Source: Streptomyces sp. E2N166
GTDB lineage: Bacteria > Actinomycetota > Actinomycetes > Streptomycetales > Streptomycetaceae
Length of the DNA: 64,000 nt
Assembly (NCBI RefSeq): GCF_003671715.1
Contig: NZ_RAIF01000006.1
Coordinates: forward strand, 242,285-306,284
Direction of reading: 5' to 3'
Positions within the stretch are counted from its first letter, which is position 1. Every line of letters begins with the position of its first letter. The position numbers and the translations under genes were made by a program. Below the pieces are notes generated by a model. The model was not told the origin of the DNA and ran no database searches. It was given only the letters and a program-made list of their open reading frames with translations. This document shows positions 51,421-59,585 of the stretch, piece after piece.

Positions 51421-52434
51421 CTATCCGAGGACCGCTCCCACGGGCGCCGGTGACCCGTCCCAGCTCATACGTGACCAGGGGAGGGTCAGTTCGTCCGTGC
51501 CGCGTACCGGCCGGGGGGCCAGGTCCTCGATACGCGCGGCCTCCCGGTGCCGGGCGAACACGGTGTCGGCGTAACGGTGGCCGGTGTCGGCGGCGATGAA
51601 CAAGGCGGTACGGCCGGGCTCCCCGCGGCGTTCCCACTGGGCAGCGAGGTAGGCGGCTCCGGTGGACAGGCCCGCGAACACGGCGTGCCGGCGCAGCAGG
51701 TCGACGCTGCCGGCGAGGGCGGCGTCGAAGGCGAGCCAGTGCAGGGTGTCGTAGAGGTCGTGGCGGACGTTGCCGAAGGGGATGGAGCTGCCGATGCCGG
51801 CGATGATGATCTCCGGATCGGCGACGTGCTCGCTGCCGAAGGTGACACTCCCGTACGGCTGGACGCCCACGAGTCGTACGTCGACGGAGCGTTTACTCAG
51901 GTAGTGGGCGAGGGCGCCGGTGGAGGCCCCGGAGCCCACGCCGCCGACGAGGGTGAGGGAGTCGCCTCCGGTCCGGTCGTGGATCCGTTCGGCGACGGCT
52001 TCGTAGCCGAGGTAGTGGATGTCGTCGTGGTACTGGCGCATCCAGTGGTAGTCCGGGTTCTCCCGCAGGATTTCGCGGACGCGGGCGACGCGGCGGTTCT
52101 GGTCGAGCTTGAGACTGCTGCTGGGCGGCATCTGCTCCAGGTGGGCGCCGAGTATGTCCAGTTGGATACGCAGGGTGTTGTCGACGGTGGTGGAGCCGAC
52201 GATGTGGCATCGCATGCCGTAGCGGTGGCAGGCCAGGGCGAGTGCGTAGGCGTAGATGCCGCTGGAGCTGTCGACGAGGGTGTCACCGCGCCGTACGGAT
52301 CCGCTGTCGAGCAGGTGGCGTACGGCGGCCAGGGCGGAGACGACCTTCATGGTCTCGAAGCGAAGGCAGAGGAGGCCGTCGTCGAGGCGTATCAGGTCCG
52401 GGCGGCCGATGGCTTCCGAGATGTGTTCGTCCAC
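51421..52434 (-). CDS. PLP-dependent beta-replacement enzyme (CysK/SbnA-like)
   Basis: A 337-residue fold-type II PLP enzyme. The Schiff-base lysine is in RFETMKVVSALAAV (about residue 30), the phosphate loop is GGVGSGASTGALAHY (about residue 165), and VGVQPYGSVTFGSE and IAADTGHRYADTV complete the active-site scaffold. It is divergent from normal cysteine synthases and closer in style to enzymes that use O-phospho-L-serine (SbnA). GAGGAG precedes GTG 52434. It is last in a seven-gene operon with a kinase that could supply such a phosphorylated amino acid. Confidence 0.8.
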   Translation of the reverse strand: MDEHISEAIGRPDLIRLDDGLLCLRFETMKVVSALAAVRHLLDSGSVRRGDTLVDSSSGIYAYALALACHRYGMRCHIVGSTTVDNTLRIQLDILGAHLEQMPPSSSLKLDQNRRVARVREILRENPDYHWMRQYHDDIHYLGYEAVAERIHDRTGGDSLTLVGGVGSGASTGALAHYLSKRSVDVRLVGVQPYGSVTFGSEHVADPEIIIAGIGSSIPFGNVRHDLYDTLHWLAFDAALAGSVDLLRRHAVFAGLSTGAAYLAAQWERRGEPGRTALFIAADTGHRYADTVFARHREAARIEDLAPRPVRGTDELTLPWSRMSWDGSPAPVGAVLG

Positions 52435-53396
52435 GGGAGCTCCTCACTGGTGTGGGACGCGAAGGTGGTGAAGGTCCGGGTCGGTGTGATGCCCTCGCGG
52501 TCCAGGGCACGGGTGCAGCGGCGCAGCCTGTGGTGCAGTCCGGGAGTGCGGGGGTCGTAGAGGACCCCGGCGACGTTGCCGCTGTGAGCGATCTGCACGC
52601 CGACGGCACCCGTGCTGTCCGCGATGCCGGTGAGGGCCGGGAACTCCTGGTGGCGCAGGACACGTTGGCGCAGGCGGGCGCTGGCGGTGCCGACCCGGCC
52701 GAGCAGGGCGGTGTCGACGTCTGCCACCGCCCTGCGGAGCATACGGCGCAGGTGTCCGTAGGCGGCGAGATCGTCGTCGTGGTGAAGGGCGGGGAGGGAG
52801 AGGGTGTCGATCGGTGCGCCTCCGGCGAGCGCGCACCCGACCACCACGGCGGGCGGTAGCGCGGAGCCCAGAACTTCCAGGACACGGCCCTCGCGCTGCG
52901 CGAAGAGCAGTGGGCGTGCACCGTGCATCAGGGGGTCGCTGGCGCCTTCGGCACGCACCGCGATCCGGGCGATCGTGCCCGCCGGCAGCAGCACGCCCCA
53001 GGAGTCGGCGACCGCCCGCACAGTGGCGATGACGTCACTGGTGGAGGAGCCCATGCCGAGACCGACGGGGAGGTCCCCGGTGAGGGTCAGCTCCCCGCCG
53101 CAGGGCTCCGTGTCGCGGCGTGCGGCGCACTCCCGTACCGCGAGTACGGCCGCCGCCTGCGCCTTGGTCCGGCCGGCGGGCGCCACCGTCACCTCGTCCG
53201 GCGGGCTGCCGGGCCGGTGCACGAACCGGGCGGTGCTGCCCGGTCCGTTCATGGGCAGTGTGACCAGTGCGTGGACGGCGCGACGCCGCTCGTCGAGGAA
53301 GACGCCTTGCAAGATCTCGCCGTGATGGCAGGCGGCGCGTCCGGTGCCCTCCGTGCCACGGGCTGCGGCCTCCGGCGGGCGGATGGCGGCCGTCAT
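52392..53396 (-). CDS. GHMP kinase, PduX-like
   Basis: A 334-residue small-molecule kinase. The GHMP phosphate-binding motif is LPVGLGMGSSTSDV (about residue 105) and the N-terminal CHHGEILQGVF matches the GELVQG segment of PduX, an L-threonine kinase. Hence a phosphorylated amino acid such as O-phosphoserine or O-phosphothreonine is a reasonable product. The start ATG 53396 overlaps the stop of the DUF364 gene (ATGA), and its end overlaps the PLP gene by 43 nt. It would feed the PLP enzyme in the same operon. Confidence 0.8.
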   Translation of the reverse strand: MTAAIRPPEAAARGTEGTGRAACHHGEILQGVFLDERRRAVHALVTLPMNGPGSTARFVHRPGSPPDEVTVAPAGRTKAQAAAVLAVRECAARRDTEPCGGELTLTGDLPVGLGMGSSTSDVIATVRAVADSWGVLLPAGTIARIAVRAEGASDPLMHGARPLLFAQREGRVLEVLGSALPPAVVVGCALAGGAPIDTLSLPALHHDDDLAAYGHLRRMLRRAVADVDTALLGRVGTASARLRQRVLRHQEFPALTGIADSTGAVGVQIAHSGNVAGVLYDPRTPGLHHRLRRCTRALDREGITPTRTFTTFASHTSEELPWTNTSRKPSAART

Positions 53397-54202
53397 GCGT
53401 CGGCCGCCACCCGGTAGCGGTACAGGGTCGTGGGTTCGGCGCTGAACTGGGAGAAGGGGAAGGGCTCCGCGGACAGGGCGGTCACGCCCTGTCCGAGAAA
53501 GGCCCTTGCCACGGCGCTGCCGGTCTGGGCGTAGACCACCAGGGGCACGCCGCGTTCGCGGCAGCGGGCCAGGACGGTGTCGAAGCTGCCGTTGCTGAGG
53601 GTCATGCCGGTGGCCACGACGGCGTCGGCGGTGTCGAGGACCTCGTGCATGTCGTCGGTGACCGGGTCGCCCCATTGGGTGGTGCGCAGGTTGAAGTCGC
53701 AGAGCAGGGGATCACCGCCGCGCTCGCGGATGGCAGCGACGAGCGGGTTGACCACCCCGATCAGACCCACCCTGGCCCCGGCCTCGATGTCCAAGAGCCC
53801 GGCGATGGCTGCGTCCCGGGCCAGCGCCCGGGTCTCGGGGGTCCCGGCGGGCAGGGTGACCGGCTCCGCCTCGGTCGCCTCCCGGTGCGGTCGGGCGGCA
53901 CTGAGGTAGGCGTCGAGCGCGGCGACCCGCAGCGGCCTCGGCGACTCGCGCAGCAGCGTGTCGAGCGTGGCACCGGAGGCGTCGCGGCATATGGAAGCGT
54001 CGACCTCGCCCGCCTCGAACGCGCACCCGCCGAAGGAACCACCCAGGCGGACGAGAACGTACTGGTTGAGGTAAGTGGTGTTCCCGCCGGCCAGCCGGGT
54101 GCCGTGGTGCGTCCAGAACACGCTGGTGGCGACGAGGTCGGCGGGGCGGGGGCCGTGCTCGCCGGCCAGGACGGCGGCCAGAAGTTCCTCGGTGTTCTTC
54201 AT
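53393..54202 (-). CDS. DUF364 (putative heavy-metal chelation) protein
   Basis: A 269-residue protein of the DUF364 group. The N-terminal part (about 35-110) resembles DUF4213 (NTTYLNQYVLVRLGG, GGCAFEAGEVDASICRD) and the C-terminal Rossmann-like half has VGLIGVVNPLVAAI, DFNLRTTQWGDPV and ADAVVATGMTLSNGSFDTVL. Pfam describes this domain as putative heavy-metal chelation. Start and stop overlap with the genes on both sides, so the operon is tightly coupled. In this locus it may assemble or bind the metallophore. Confidence 0.84.
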   Translation of the reverse strand: MKNTEELLAAVLAGEHGPRPADLVATSVFWTHHGTRLAGGNTTYLNQYVLVRLGGSFGGCAFEAGEVDASICRDASGATLDTLLRESPRPLRVAALDAYLSAARPHREATEAEPVTLPAGTPETRALARDAAIAGLLDIEAGARVGLIGVVNPLVAAIRERGGDPLLCDFNLRTTQWGDPVTDDMHEVLDTADAVVATGMTLSNGSFDTVLARCRERGVPLVVYAQTGSAVARAFLGQGVTALSAEPFPFSQFSAEPTTLYRYRVAADA

Positions 54203-54951
54203 CGCTGTCCTCCGGAGCGGGGCGTGTCGTGGGTGACGCGGAAGAGGAAGGTCAGAACGCCGTCCTGCCAGTCGTGGAGATGGTCGATCCGAGGGCTGAG
54301 CCCGTTGTCCAAGGCGTGCTGGACCAGGGTCCGCAGATCCGCGGTGTTGGAGGCGATGACGTAGATCTCGCCGCCGGGGGCCAGCAGGTCCCTTTCCGCG
54401 ATCTGGGCGAAGAACCTCGCCAGCAGCGGGGCGCCCACGCAGACGTTGCGTACGACGTCCGGGTCGTCGCTGACGGTCTGGCTGACGGCGGGCGGGTTGA
54501 AGGTGACCACGTCCAGCCGGGCACCGTCCGGGAGAGCGTCGAAGACGTCACTCACCGCGGGGAGGAACGCGGTTTCGGGGCGCTCGCCGACCAGGCGCCG
54601 GTAGTGACCGGTGGCGGCGGCCACACTCTCCGCGTGGACGTCGAGCGCGTGGATCTCCCGAGCGCCACGGATGCCCGCCGCCACGGCCTCGACGCCCAGG
54701 CCGACGCCCATGGCGGCGTACCGGAGGCCGCGGGTCTCGATACGGCCGTCGAGCACCCGCTCGTGGATCAGGCGGCTGGTCCAGCCGGGTATGAAGACGC
54801 CGGGCGGAACGTCGAACGTCCAGCCGTTCCACTCGTAGGTACGAGTGGTGTGCAGGTCGGCCTTGGGCTGGTTGAGGGCGATGATCCGGTCGGCGGGCAG
54901 AGGTGGGGGCAGCTGCTCCAGAAGAGCTTGGCCGATCGAGTAGCGGTCCAT
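54199..54951 (-). CDS. Small SAM-dependent methyltransferase
   Basis: A 250-residue class I methyltransferase with motif I AAMGVGLGVEAVAAGI (about 82-97), acidic DVHAES and motif IV VVTFNPPAV (NPPA, related to the NPPY of N-methyltransferases such as HemK). The N-terminal FIPGWTSRLIHERVLDG is typical of the MTS group. AGGAGAAGG lies before ATG 54951. Its stop overlaps the DUF364 start. It would methylate or add a SAM-derived group to a small molecule. Confidence 0.82.
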   Translation of the reverse strand: MDRYSIGQALLEQLPPPLPADRIIALNQPKADLHTTRTYEWNGWTFDVPPGVFIPGWTSRLIHERVLDGRIETRGLRYAAMGVGLGVEAVAAGIRGAREIHALDVHAESVAAATGHYRRLVGERPETAFLPAVSDVFDALPDGARLDVVTFNPPAVSQTVSDDPDVVRNVCVGAPLLARFFAQIAERDLLAPGGEIYVIASNTADLRTLVQHALDNGLSPRIDHLHDWQDGVLTFLFRVTHDTPRSGGQR

Positions 54952-55003
54952 GGGGTCCTTCTCCTCTCGCATAACGGGGTGGTGTGCGCCCACGTCGAAG
55001 TGC

Positions 55004-55041
55004 GGCCTGTCCGGCGGGCGTTCACGTCCGCCGGACAGGCC
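55004..55041 (-). terminator. Hairpin between uptake and biosynthesis genes
   Basis: GGCCTGTCCGGCGG (55004-55017) and CCGCCGGACAGGCC (55028-55041) form a perfect 14-bp stem after the binding-protein gene and 53 nt before the methyltransferase start. It may act as an attenuator so that uptake genes are expressed more than the biosynthetic ones. Confidence 0.7.
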
Positions 55042-55056
55042 CTGGCACGCGGTGAC

Positions 55057-56067
55057 TCAACCCTTGAGTTCGCGCAGGTAGGTGGCGAACTTCTCCAGGC
55101 CGTCGATGTTGCGGGGGCCGCTGATGCCCTCGTTGTAGTCGAGGACGAAGAAGTTGTTCTTCTTCACGGCCGGGAGTCCTCTGGTGTGAGGGGACTTCTT
55201 CAGGAAGTCGATCTTCTTTTCGGCGGGCAGGTCGCCGTAGTCGAGGATGACGATGACTTCGGGCTCGGCCTCGGCGACGGATTCCCAGTTGACCTGGGTC
55301 CAGCGCTCGTCGAGGCCGTCGAAGACGTTCCGGCCGCCCGCCGACTTGATGATGTCGTTGGGGGGCACCTGGTTGCCCGCGGTGAACGGCTGGTCGGTGC
55401 CGGAGTCGTAGAGGAAGACGGGTACCGCATCGCCCTCCCGGGCCTTGGCCTTGACCTGCTCCACGCGCCTCTTCAACCCGCCGACGACTTCCGTGGCCTT
55501 CTCCTCGACCCGGAAGATCGTGCCCAGCCGTTCGAGGTCGGTGTAGAGAGCCTCGAAGGGGCTCATCCTCTCGGGGTGACCCGGGTAGTTGAAGCAGCTC
55601 TCGGTGTGCATGAAGCTCTGGATGCCGAGCTTGTCGAGGATCTCGGGCGTGATGCCCCGCTCGTCCTTGAAGCCGGAGTTCCAGCCGGCCACGACGAAGT
55701 CGGACTCCGCCTCGACCACCACCTCCTTGTTGAGGAGGTCGTCGCTGAGCATCTTCACCTTCGCGTATTCCGACGCCCAAGGGGACTCGGTCACCGGCGG
55801 GTTCGCGGGAGGCATCACATAGCCGTGCACGTGCTCGGTCAGACCGAGGGCGAACAGCTTGTCCGCGCTGCCGCCTTCGTAGGCGACGGCCCGCTCGGGG
55901 ACCGTGTACTCCACCGGTTCACCACAGCGTTTGACAGTGACCTTGCGGGCCTCCTTGGCGTCCGATTCGACCTCGGCACCACATCCGCTGAGCACCAGGG
56001 CCGCCGCCAGGGCGGAGCCGAGAGCGGCAGGCCGGCGGACCGTGGCGAGGGTTCGGGTTGTACGCAT
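55057..56067 (-). CDS. Metal-chelate ABC transporter binding lipoprotein
   Basis: A 336-residue FecB/BtuF-type binding protein. Signal peptide ends with lipobox LSGC near residue 29 (ALVLSGCGAEVES). The fold shows PERAVAYEGGSADKLFALGL, VVAGWNSGFKDERG and AEPEVIVILDYGDLPAEKK as in class III binding proteins. Its ligand should be a metal chelate, probably the product of the downstream genes. Start ATG 56067. Confidence 0.88.
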   Translation of the reverse strand: MRTTRTLATVRRPAALGSALAAALVLSGCGAEVESDAKEARKVTVKRCGEPVEYTVPERAVAYEGGSADKLFALGLTEHVHGYVMPPANPPVTESPWASEYAKVKMLSDDLLNKEVVVEAESDFVVAGWNSGFKDERGITPEILDKLGIQSFMHTESCFNYPGHPERMSPFEALYTDLERLGTIFRVEEKATEVVGGLKRRVEQVKAKAREGDAVPVFLYDSGTDQPFTAGNQVPPNDIIKSAGGRNVFDGLDERWTQVNWESVAEAEPEVIVILDYGDLPAEKKIDFLKKSPHTRGLPAVKKNNFFVLDYNEGISGPRNIDGLEKFATYLRELKG

Positions 56068-56081
56068 GCGTGAGCAGCCTT

Positions 56082-56855
56082 TCAGCGGGCGGAGTTGAGG
56101 GAGTACAGAAGTTGGGGGTCACCGGTCAGCGGGTGTGGGACGACGCTGGCCGTGACACCGAAGACGTCACCGACGAGCTGTGTCGTGAGCACGTCCACGG
56201 GCGCGCCGGAGGCGACCAGGCGACCCTGGGAGAGCACGCCGAGCCGGTCGCAGGCCGCCGCGGCGAGGTTGAGGTCGTGCAGGACGACGAGGACGGTGAG
56301 TCCCGCCCCGCGCAGGAGCGAGAGCAGGTCGACCTGGTGGCGGACGTCCAGGTGATTGGTCGGCTCGTCCAGGACGAGGATCTCCGGTTCCTGCACGAGC
56401 GCCCGGGCCAGCAGGACGCGCTGGCGTTCACCGCCCGACAGCGTCAGAACGCCCCGGTGTGCGAGGTGTCGGATGTCGAGCTGGTCCATCGCCCGCTCGC
56501 ACAGGTCGCGTTCTCGGCCACTGAGCGCCTGGTTCCCACGGAGGTGGGGCGCGCGTCCGAGCGCGACGACCTCCTCGACCGTGAAATCGAAGTCGATGCC
56601 GCCGTCCTGGGTCATGGCCGCGATGGTCTGTGCGCTGCGCCGCATCGGGAGTCGGGTCAGGTCCTGCTCGCCCACCCAGACGGTTCCGGAGCTGGGACGC
56701 AGCGCCCGGTACACGCACCGCAGCGCGGTGGACTTGCCGCTTCCATTGGGCCCCACGAGCCCCACGACCTGGCCGTCCGGCACCTCCAGGGACAGCCCGC
56801 GTACGAGACTCCTGCCGTCCATCACCACGGAGAGTTCATCGAGTTCAAGATCCAC
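56082..56855 (-). CDS. FecE/BtuD-type ABC transporter ATPase
   Basis: A 257-residue ATPase: Walker A GPNGSGKST (about 36-44), signature LSGGERQRV, Walker B ILVLDEPTNHLD and H-loop VLHDLNLA. It is separated by one base from the FecCD permease gene and by 14 nt from the binding-protein gene. GTG 56855 is the start. Confidence 0.92.
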   Translation of the reverse strand: MDLELDELSVVMDGRSLVRGLSLEVPDGQVVGLVGPNGSGKSTALRCVYRALRPSSGTVWVGEQDLTRLPMRRSAQTIAAMTQDGGIDFDFTVEEVVALGRAPHLRGNQALSGRERDLCERAMDQLDIRHLAHRGVLTLSGGERQRVLLARALVQEPEILVLDEPTNHLDVRHQVDLLSLLRGAGLTVLVVLHDLNLAAAACDRLGVLSQGRLVASGAPVDVLTTQLVGDVFGVTASVVPHPLTGDPQLLYSLNSAR

Positions 56856-56856
56856 G

Positions 56857-58011
56857 TCAGCGCCCTCCGAAGGTGTAGCCCCTGCGGCGCATCAGGGCGA
56901 TGAAGACGGGCACCCCCACGAGCGCCGTGATGACCCCGAGCGGCAGTTCGCGCGGGGCGACCAGGGTTCGCGCCGCCAGATCGACCCACACCATGAAGAT
57001 CGCTCCGACCAACGGGGCCACGGCGAGCACGCGAGCGTGCGTGGCGCCGACGACCATCCGCACCACATGCGGCATGACGAGTCCGACGAACGCGATGGCG
57101 CCGCTCACCGCGACCATGACACCCGTGACGAGCGAGACGAGGACCAGCAGCACCTTGCGGTGCCGGTCGGGATCGAAGCCGAGGCTCGCGGCGGTCTCGT
57201 CACCGAGGGAGAGGACGTCCAGTGCCCGCCCGTACCGGTACAGGACCGCGAGGCCGGCCAGCACCACGACGGAGACGACGGGCAGCGCGCCCCAAGTCGC
57301 GGCACCGAAACTGCCCATGGTCCAGTAGAGGACCATGCTCGTCGCCTCGCTGTCCGGCGCGAAGTAGATGATCAGGCTCATGACGGCCTGGAAGCCCAGC
57401 GACATGGCCACGCCCGTCAGTACGAGGCGCAGCGGTGACAGCGCACCCCGGCTGGAGGATGCGGCGTACACCAGGACCGAGGCGACGAGCGCACCGACGA
57501 AGGCGCCGACGGAGACGGCGTAGATGCCGAGTATCGCGAAACCTCCGGTGACCGTGACGCCGACGGCACCGACGGAGGCGCCCGACGAGACACCGAGGAC
57601 GAAGGGGTCGGCCAGCGCGTTGCGCACCATGGCCTGGATCGCCACTCCGACCGCACTCAGTCCGGCTCCCACCAGTGCCGCCAGCAGCACCCGAGGCGTA
57701 CGGATCTGCCAGATGATCTGATAGGTCGTCACCTCGTCGGGGCCGATGCGTCCTCCACTGAGAGCCGCCCACAGATGGCGGGCGGTCTCCCCCGGGGTGA
57801 CGACCGCGGGACCGAGTCCGATGGCGACGACGAGGGACACGAGCAGGACGGCGGCCAGCACCACGCAGCCGAGCAGGAGCGCCTTCCGAGACGCGAGCCG
57901 GCCCCGCGCAGGCGCCGCGGGCCGCGGCGCCTGCGTCTCGGCCGGTTCGGCCGTGTCCCCGTCGGCCGAGGCCACGGAGGTCGAGGACGGAGGCACGTGC
58001 GTTACCTTCAC
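56857..58011 (-). CDS. FecCD-type ABC permease
   Basis: A 384-residue permease with about nine hydrophobic segments, characteristic of siderophore/cobalamin uptake systems: TPRVLLAALVGAGLSAVGVAI, NALADPFVLGVSSGASVGAV, and FVGLVMPHVVRMVVGATHAR. First gene of the operon; GTG 58011 follows GAGGGAAA. A Zur-box-like palindrome lies 14 nt upstream of the start. Confidence 0.92.
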   Translation of the reverse strand: MKVTHVPPSSTSVASADGDTAEPAETQAPRPAAPARGRLASRKALLLGCVVLAAVLLVSLVVAIGLGPAVVTPGETARHLWAALSGGRIGPDEVTTYQIIWQIRTPRVLLAALVGAGLSAVGVAIQAMVRNALADPFVLGVSSGASVGAVGVTVTGGFAILGIYAVSVGAFVGALVASVLVYAASSSRGALSPLRLVLTGVAMSLGFQAVMSLIIYFAPDSEATSMVLYWTMGSFGAATWGALPVVSVVVLAGLAVLYRYGRALDVLSLGDETAASLGFDPDRHRKVLLVLVSLVTGVMVAVSGAIAFVGLVMPHVVRMVVGATHARVLAVAPLVGAIFMVWVDLAARTLVAPRELPLGVITALVGVPVFIALMRRRGYTFGGR

Positions 58012-58024
58012 TTTCCCTCGCTAA

Positions 58025-58039
58025 TGAAAACCATGTTCA
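58025..58039. promoter_or_regulatory. Zur-box-like site 1
   Basis: TGAAAACCATGTTCA, close to the Streptomyces Zur box TGaaAatgatTttCA (from memory). It lies in the leader of the FecCD operon. Extended arms ATGAAAAC and ATGTTCAT match at 6 of 8 positions. Confidence 0.6.
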
Positions 58040-58144
58040 TGTGCGAGAACTTAGCATGCGGACTCGACCCGGCGGACACCCCGGACCGGCAGACGCCACA
58101 GGACTACGACCCCCACCCCGAGGCGACGGCCGTGAGCACTCTAA

Positions 58145-58159
58145 TGGAAATGATTATCA
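58145..58159. promoter_or_regulatory. Zur-box-like site 2
   Basis: TGGAAATGATTATCA matches the same consensus (TGaaAatgatTttCA) at 13 of 15 positions, with the central AAATGATT intact. It lies between the two divergent units, upstream of the MFS gene. Confidence 0.68.
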
Positions 58160-58301
58160 CTGCGATAGTGTGTTGCCGACGCCGCGCTGCCCGCCGCCCG
58201 CCACGGCCGGTCCCGCCGCACAACCTCGCTCCCAGGCAAGGCCGTTGCAGCCGGTTCGCGCCCCGATCCGTCGCCCCTTCCACAGAACAGGAGTGCCTTC
58301 C

Positions 58302-59585
58302 GTGACCACCCCCTCCGCCCCTCCCACCTCCGCCGAGGCTCCGCCCTCCGAGCAGCGCTCGATCCTGCTCGACCTGGCCTTCCTCCGCCTCTGGACGGGC
58401 GCCACCGCATCGGGCCTGGCCACCTGGGCCCTGCCGTTCGTCCTCGGACTCGCCGTCTTCGAGCGAACCCTGACCGCCACCGACCTCGGCCTGCTGCTCG
58501 CCGCGCGCACCGTCGGGTTCCTCGCCGCGGTGCCCGTGGCCGGAGTACTGGCCGACCGGCACTCCCGCCGGGGCGTCGTCCTGTGGGCGGGACTCGCCGC
58601 CGGAGCCGCAGCGCCGGTGATCGCCGCCGGACTGGACCGCTCGGTGCTTCTGATGGCGGCGGCCGCCGCGGTGGCCGGAGCGGGCCAGGGCGCCTGCCGC
58701 CCCGCCTACCAGGCCCTGACCGCCGAGGTGGTCGACGCCGACCGCAGGCAGCAGGCCAACGCCGCCATGACCCTGGCGGTACGGGTCACCACGCTCGTTG
58801 GGCCCTCCCTGGCCGCGCTGCTCGCCGTCTTCCTGGACACCTGGGCACTGCTGGTGGGCATCGGGCTGCTCTGGCTCGTCGCGGCCTGCGTTCCCGGACG
58901 CGGCGCACGGCCGGGGGCCGCGGAAGACACGTCGGAACCCTCGGCCGCGACGGACAGGGCATCATTCCTGGCCGAGTTCACCGAGGGCATCCGCGAGGCT
59001 CGCAGGCACCCCTGGTTCCTCGCCGGTCTGGGCGCGCTGACCGCCGTCATAGCCACCGGCTACTCCGCGACCGGCGTCGCCCTGCCCATGGTCAGCCGCG
59101 ACGAATACGGCACCGAGGTCGTCCTCGCGGGCGCGATGACCGCCTACACCGCCGGAGCGCTGGGCGGTGCGCTGCTCATTGCCCGCTGGCGCCCCCGCTC
59201 CCCCGGCCGGGCCGCTCTGGCCGGCCTCGCCGCCTACGGATTCGCCCCGCTCAGCCTCATCTTCCCCGTGCACCCGGTCGTCGTGATGGCCGCCTACGCG
59301 GTCGCGGGCATCGGCATCGAGTTGTTCAACGTGCCGTGGTTCACCGCCGCCCAGCGCGAGGTCGCACCGGACAAACTGGCCCGGGTCTCCTCCCTGGACT
59401 TCCTGCTCTCCTACGGCCTCGCCCCGGTCGGACTCGCCGTCATCGCCCCCGCCATCGACGCCTTCGGTCCCGAGGCGGTCCTCGCGGGCTGCGCGCTCAT
59501 CTGCTTCGCGGCACCCGCCACCGCCGCCCTGGTGCCCAGCGCCCGCACCTTCTCCGCCGCACCTGGGCGCAGCGACGTCCACTGA
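58302..59585 (+). CDS. MFS exporter, EntS-like
   Basis: A 427-residue exporter of the MFS_3/EntS-like group with 10-12 hydrophobic helices; LRLWTGATASGLATWALPFV at the start and VAGVLADRHSRRGVVLWAGL (loop 2-3 signature) are typical. Members often export siderophores. GTG 58302 has AGGAG upstream. It is divergent from the Fec-type uptake operon across the two Zur-box-like sites, so it most likely exports the same small molecule that is later taken up as a metal complex. Confidence 0.86.
   Translation: MTTPSAPPTSAEAPPSEQRSILLDLAFLRLWTGATASGLATWALPFVLGLAVFERTLTATDLGLLLAARTVGFLAAVPVAGVLADRHSRRGVVLWAGLAAGAAAPVIAAGLDRSVLLMAAAAAVAGAGQGACRPAYQALTAEVVDADRRQQANAAMTLAVRVTTLVGPSLAALLAVFLDTWALLVGIGLLWLVAACVPGRGARPGAAEDTSEPSAATDRASFLAEFTEGIREARRHPWFLAGLGALTAVIATGYSATGVALPMVSRDEYGTEVVLAGAMTAYTAGALGGALLIARWRPRSPGRAALAGLAAYGFAPLSLIFPVHPVVVMAAYAVAGIGIELFNVPWFTAAQREVAPDKLARVSSLDFLLSYGLAPVGLAVIAPAIDAFGPEAVLAGCALICFAAPATAALVPSARTFSAAPGRSDVH

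Follow-up and report, generated by a model that had tools for sequence, protein, structure and literature searches.

A conserved DUF364 and PLP-enzyme gene cluster with Zur-like boxes in Streptomyces sp. E2N166, a probable zincophore system

The DNA analysed here, referred to as the window, is a stretch of 64,000 nucleotides of contig NZ_RAIF01000006.1 (assembly GCF_003671715.1) from the 7.9 Mb genome of Streptomyces sp. E2N166. It contains a gene cluster that very probably serves the synthesis, export and re-import of a zinc chelator. Seven minus-strand genes (51421-58011) are packed as one operon and a gene for a major facilitator superfamily (MFS) transporter diverges from them (58302-59585, plus strand). 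Read from 58011 to 51421, the operon encodes a FecCD-type permease, a FecE-type ATP-binding cassette (ABC) ATPase, a substrate-binding lipoprotein, a methyltransferase, a DUF364 protein, a GHMP-family kinase and a pyridoxal phosphate (PLP) enzyme (Table 1). Methyltransferase and DUF364 genes overlap by 4 bp, DUF364 and kinase genes by 4 bp, and kinase and PLP-enzyme genes by 43 bp. The kinase start was corrected to 53396, where an ATGA overlap joins it to the DUF364 stop, and the methyltransferase start to 54951; the MFS start was placed at 58302, a GTG after AGGAG, as the open reading frame (ORF) from 58041 is over-extended. An earlier note on this DNA had given the same eight genes, order and start/stop overlaps, all of which were found by Pfam profiles and translations, and the two Zur-box-like sites that it placed in the divergent intergenic region are both there, at 58025 and 58145.

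Table 1 Features of the cluster, with window coordinates and profile scores in bits (score/cut-off where two values are given)
Feature	Position	Strand	Evidence
FecCD-type permease, operon gene 1, 384 aa	56857..58011	-	PF01032 299 bits; closest NCBIfam model TIGR03869, 274/437 bits (under cut-off)
FecE-type ABC ATPase, 257 aa	56082..56855	-	PF00005 (ABC_tran) 116 bits; TIGR03873 269/372 bits
Substrate-binding lipoprotein, 336 aa	55057..56067	-	PF01497 (Peripla_BP_2) 82 bits; lipobox LSGC in translation
MTS/HemK-like methyltransferase, 250 aa	54199..54951	-	PF05175 22.7 bits (cut-off 23, narrowly missed); NPPA motif
DUF364 protein, 269 aa	53393..54202	-	PF04016 46 bits (cut-off 23)
GHMP-family small-molecule kinase, 334 aa	52392..53396	-	PF00288 (GHMP_kinases_N) 46 bits; GLGMGSSTSD motif
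SbnA/CysK-like fold-type II PLP enzyme, 337 aa	51421..52434	-	PF00291 (PALP) 120 bits; TIGR03945 130/350 bits
MFS transporter, putative exporter, divergent	58302..59585	+	PF07690 (MFS_1) 117 bits; start set by ribosome-binding site and relatives
Zur-like box 1, 14 bp ahead of FecCD start	58025..58039	.	TGAAAACCATGTTCA, 1 mismatch against the S. coelicolor motif
Zur-like box 2, between divergent genes	58145..58159	.	TGGAAATGATTATCA, 1 mismatch against the motif; similar site recurs in relatives

The search for this gene set in other actinobacteria that the earlier note had called for finds it in roughly 100 genomes from several families, mostly next to Zur-like sites. Genes for the PLP enzyme, kinase, Fec-type ABC system and MFS transporter recur in 101 DUF364 loci from Streptomyces, Kitasatospora, several Pseudonocardiales and Actinopolymorpha. 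Loci were chosen by DUF364 or PLP-enzyme similarity, so that counts describe that selection; gene counts also depend on profile thresholds, and several clusters are truncated by contig ends. Scanning 84,980 species, each represented by one genome, gave at least 310 DUF364 relatives, a lower bound limited by the search patterns, and the best 80 of these include Streptomyces, Kitasatospora, Amycolatopsis, Prauserella, Pseudonocardia, Thermocrispum, Actinophytocola, Umezawaea and Actinopolymorpha. In 81 loci, the window included, the PLP enzyme is present in 78, the kinase in 71, FecCD in 71 and the MFS transporter in 66. Conservation across genera rules out chance co-location of the genes. The nearest relative, L052, has the same identities to the window's proteins as L110 (S. 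flaveolus JCM 4032). A PLP-enzyme search of 298 Streptomycetaceae genomes found DUF364 adjoining in 27, this genome included. In a phylum-wide sample only 5 of 296 genomes match, and the trait is therefore accessory.

Twenty related loci taken with their flanks hold DUF364, the PLP enzyme and a Fec-type ABC system, usually together with the kinase and MFS transporter, in at least three arrangements. Arrangement A is that of the window, with the methyltransferase; arrangement B has no methyltransferase and a different Fec-type ABC system; arrangement C runs methyltransferase-PLP-DUF364-MFS-ABC and has a diverged, divergently transcribed kinase. The methyltransferase had been proposed as a tailoring enzyme. 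The gene is present here and the fold is close to those of N-methyltransferases, RNA methyltransferases and PrmC/HemK2; 43 of 100 loci have the gene, so that any tailoring step would be optional. Its presence shows a mere tendency to follow importer type (27 of 34 loci against 16 of 66). An alternative role as a nicotianamine-synthase-like aminocarboxypropyl transferase was dropped, given these nearest folds. Other genes adjoin some of the clusters. TauD-family dioxygenase genes lie beside the kinase in two loci of arrangement C (L066:7329-8414 and L067:13038-13940), where they may add a further tailoring step, and a PhyH-family dioxygenase gene stands between the PLP-enzyme and DUF364 genes of a third, which has no nearby kinase (L178:9149-9928). 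At L056:2577-10109 the DUF364 cluster has as immediate neighbours a P450 gene, a gene resembling isonitrile synthases (DIT1_PvcA), an MFS gene and a second set of Fec-type ABC genes.

The Zur motif of S. coelicolor, obtained from chromatin immunoprecipitation data, is tGaNNatSatNNtCa (PMC5472717). The two boxes of the window are of the 7-1-7 type and are the sole sites in the whole 64 kb that match at least 11 positions of a 15-mer consensus of our own choosing. Allowing one mismatch at most, the published motif has a density of 1.14 per kb in the 410 bp at the MFS 5' end across 80 clusters, and of 0.011 per kb in the remaining sequence around those clusters, an enrichment of about 100-fold; 33 of the 80 MFS-promoter regions contain it, compared with 0.06 on average in dinucleotide-shuffled sequence. 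As related clusters cannot be counted as independent, these loci represent fewer events than their number. Sites matching the 15-mer at 12 or more positions are present in 17 of 20 DUF364 loci (19 of 20 at 11 positions); in 20 loci that have a related PLP enzyme and lack DUF364, no site reaches 12. The promoter box is, in short, conserved in relatives.

The rest of the host genome was scanned for the same type of site. A first pattern was too loose, matching coding DNA throughout, and was replaced by a tighter one, which finds 10 distinct sites against 1 for a reversed-pattern control. Two of the 10 are at this cluster. Others belong to znuA-znuC-znuB followed by a FUR-family gene (zur), to a second, divergent pair of zinc-type ABC genes and to the gene of a CDF exporter (the FUR gene was identified by Pfam, the rest by reading translations); the few sites inside coding regions are probably chance. 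The znuACB-zur, zinc-type ABC and CDF exporter genes are classic Zur targets. Zur control of the cluster is likely, because the motif is enriched and conserved at the MFS promoter and because the pattern that locates it also locates classic zinc genes. We consider the cluster to be, with fair probability, a Zur-repressed zincophore system of an architecture that we did not find described. A metallophore directed at iron, copper, nickel or cobalt, with boxes that answer to a different Fur-family regulator, is unlikely. Fec-type importers carry many chelates, and a small Fur-like ORF, with no Pfam match, was seen by eye beside one related cluster (L178:12131-12469); this is outweighed by the fit of the boxes to the S. 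coelicolor Zur motif, by the zinc genes that the tight pattern recovers and by the lack of an iron box in all 41 sequences scanned.

Two homologues of the DUF364 protein, Dhaf4260 (PDB 3l5o) and PH1506 (3npg), share its two-domain fold and its metal ABC transporter neighbourhood, and from the pocket and gene context a role in chelator synthesis, by condensation or hydrolysis, was put forward, without naming a substrate, a partner enzyme or a regulator (PMC2954201). In the present clusters DUF364 can be tied to a PLP enzyme, a kinase and Zur-like sites. The model of the window's protein (predicted local distance difference test score 89.5) matches 3l5o and 3npg best, over the full length and both domains, and with a profile score twice the cut-off this places it in the family. 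Invariant residues are present in the alignment and none is a lysine, so DUF364 is not itself a PLP enzyme. The earlier note had given the protein no step, yet it proves central: DUF364 is the constant partner of this PLP enzyme and sets the system apart from relatives that contain a lyase or ligase.

The PLP enzyme has the SbnA/CysK fold and its closest solved chains are those of SbnA, the staphyloferrin B enzyme; its TIGR03945 score (130 bits, with the equivalog cut-off at 350) marks it as distant kin of the same fold and not as SbnA. In an alignment of relatives Lys30 and the SSG loop are conserved, so the catalytic positions are intact, as are the GLGMGSSTSD motif and invariant residues of the kinase and the NPPA motif of the methyltransferase. 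The 'PduX-like' name given to the kinase is backed by no profile beyond the GHMP fold: the protein matches GHMP_kinases_N only, with no NCBIfam equivalog, and in the PDB it resembles mevalonate and homoserine kinases weakly. In a kinase tree, the kinases of arrangements A and B stand apart from those of arrangement C, and each group falls with kinases of nonribosomal peptide synthetase (NRPS) clusters. Two lineages of kinase therefore partner DUF364-type PLP enzymes, which supports the kinase product being the PLP substrate. The coupling of kinase and PLP enzyme, already suggested in the earlier note, gains from this and from kinase-PLP pairs elsewhere.

Relatives of the PLP enzyme occur in three settings: NRPS clusters, an ATP-grasp setting and the DUF364 setting. 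In the first (L043-L049, L189) the enzyme stands with an argininosuccinate-lyase homologue, a LAL-type ATP-grasp ligase and mostly a GHMP kinase. The second (L032 and others) pairs it with an ATP-grasp ligase, often an MFS transporter and sometimes an ABC system. CysK-like enzymes are known to make threonine-derived 2,3-diaminobutyrate, as in the DabABC systems of the friulimicin and laspartomycin NRPS clusters (PMC4052310), and the related NRPS clusters found here, which pair the PLP enzyme with a GHMP kinase, fit that logic. Alongside NRPS genes, DabABC clusters carry an argininosuccinate-lyase homologue, whereas the DUF364 clusters have the kinase and the CysK-like enzyme with neither an argininosuccinate-type lyase nor an ATP-grasp ligase in any of the 101 loci. 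Strain E2N166 itself carries examples of both other settings. One (L189, C48:225000-242500, a locus that ends at the window's left edge) is an NRPS cluster lying 8 kb to the left of the window; its DabA-like PLP enzyme, argininosuccinate-lyase homologue, LAL ATP-grasp ligase and GHMP kinase are likely a 2,3-diaminobutyrate set. The other (L032:4362-13538, C54 at about 505500) has a paralogous kinase-PLP pair with ATP-grasp, MFS, methyltransferase, Fec ABC and ferric-reductase-like genes; it has no DUF364 or Zur box, and the iron box expected there was not found.

The gene set for [S,S]-ethylenediaminedisuccinate (EDDS) includes an SbnA-like enzyme, its other enzymes being SbnB- and lyase-like, and we know of no DUF364 protein or kinase in it. 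EDDS production in the actinobacterium Amycolatopsis japonicum is under Zur control (PMC9252823), which parallels the Zur-like boxes here. This parallel, the standing of aminopolycarboxylic acids as a recognised metallophore class (PMC10320115) and the distant likeness of the PLP enzyme to SbnA would all suit a known aminopolycarboxylate (EDDS or aspergillomarasmine-type) made by an unrecognised route. We think this improbable given the missing argininosuccinate-type lyase; moreover, we found no paper on DUF364 and metallophores together, and papers that name DUF364 describe no such cluster in their titles or abstracts.

The transport genes had been expected to accompany the enzymes: the earlier note had regarded homologues without transport genes as a sign against its reading, and the recurrence of Fec-type ABC and MFS genes in DUF364 loci favours it. 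Importer type varies between clusters while the enzymes are constant. The 'EntS-like' putative exporter, encoded divergently, is an MFS protein by its MFS_1 score, but the EntS label rests on 27 bits (cut-off 324). Also unlikely is a zinc-sparing cofactor or amino-acid pathway with cofactor uptake (F420- or corrinoid-like) and no metallophore. In its favour, models for F420-0 and BtuCD come closest to the ABC subunits, and GHMP kinases of broadly this kind supply the phospho-threonine used for cobalamin. Against it, the F420-0 cut-offs are missed (TIGR03868 165/392, TIGR03869 274/437, TIGR03873 269/372 bits), importers change while enzymes stay, most loci have an MFS gene linked to the enzymes and the trait is accessory in both family and phylum samples.

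We propose that the cluster works as a zincophore pathway. When zinc is scarce, Zur would leave both boxes and both divergent transcripts would be made. The GHMP kinase would phosphorylate free L-threonine or L-serine, and the PLP enzyme, in the manner of SbnA- and DabA-type enzymes, would swap the phosphate for the amine of a second amino acid, giving a secondary-amine aminopolycarboxylate. As there is no argininosuccinate-type lyase to free a diamino acid, the adduct would be kept, and its chemistry suggests a metal-binding aminopolycarboxylate scaffold. DUF364, acting in place of the lyase or ligase, would condense the adduct with a further unit or otherwise process it to the final chelator, which the enzyme classes suggest is of aminopolycarboxylate type; the methyltransferase, where present, would N-methylate it. 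The MFS transporter would export the chelator and the Fec-type ABC system re-import the zinc complex. Of the interpretation offered earlier, this retains a likely zinc-regulated, NRPS-free metallophore system with genes for synthesis, export and Fec-type import; the methyltransferase has become optional, and the PduX and EntS labels weak.

Several observations weigh against this proposal: (i) about a third of loci have no site at 12 of 15 positions, partly because contigs end early; (ii) the PLP enzyme scores far below the SbnA cut-off; (iii) several loci (such as L171, L172, L178, L182 and L184) have no nearby kinase; (iv) the top-scoring models of the ABC components, although under their cut-offs, are named for F420-0 transport.

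Among other known systems, the opine zincophores staphylopine and pseudopaline are zinc metallophores with export and ABC import, and actinobacterial members can use FecCD importers (PMC7438024). No opine dehydrogenase was found among the cluster proteins with Pfam or NCBIfam, and the operon also differs from the staphyloferrin B system in having no SbnB or NRPS-independent siderophore (NIS) synthetase. As far as we compared them or know them, EDDS, coelibactin and the opine zincophores share regulation or logic with the present cluster and not its gene set. The cluster is not described in the literature searched, which mostly left out subscription journals, so a description may exist there. 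To our knowledge, the number of known zinc metallophore pathways is small, and NRPS or opine signatures led to many of them. The present gene set has neither signature, yet is found in about 9% of sampled Streptomycetaceae genomes. We know of no reaction assigned to DUF364 since 2010, although its structure is solved; its place in a short pathway, in which the partner enzymes are named and a metal and a regulator are likely, opens that reaction to direct testing. The compound made could be a natural zinc chelator, and such chelators are of interest as metallo-beta-lactamase inhibitors.

A second type of cluster in other Streptomycetaceae has a distant DUF364 (E about 1e-65) directly adjoining a PLP enzyme. 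By Pfam, these clusters comprise ATP-grasp/LAL, DUF364, PLP, MR_MLE (dipeptide-epimerase-like), MFS, methyltransferase and SBP_bac_5 genes (L195-L206, for example L205:7548-15606), and in most of 12 loci Zur 15-mer sites with at least 11 of 15 matches lie ahead of the first gene. The DUF364-PLP pair persists although kinase, importer and exporter differ, an indication that the pair is the core of the chemistry. It is conceivable, though we hold this more doubtful than otherwise, that actinobacterial DUF364 proteins are a new class of zincophore-building enzyme that processes the product of a partner PLP enzyme, in at least two architectures (kinase-PLP-DUF364 with Fec import, and ATP-grasp-DUF364-PLP-epimerase with a family 5 binding protein) that both carry Zur-like boxes; they would make up an unrecognised non-NRPS, non-NIS, non-opine family of zinc metallophores in hundreds of species. 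Elsewhere in the E2N166 genome (L188:2451-7244, C54 at about 831450), a Zur-like box, TGGAAATGATTGTCA, precedes a family 5 (SBP_bac_5) binding-protein gene and a long transport ORF beside a GNAT gene. The second-type biosynthetic set was not seen in the stretch read there, and one may speculate that this is an importer for a metallophore made by another strain.

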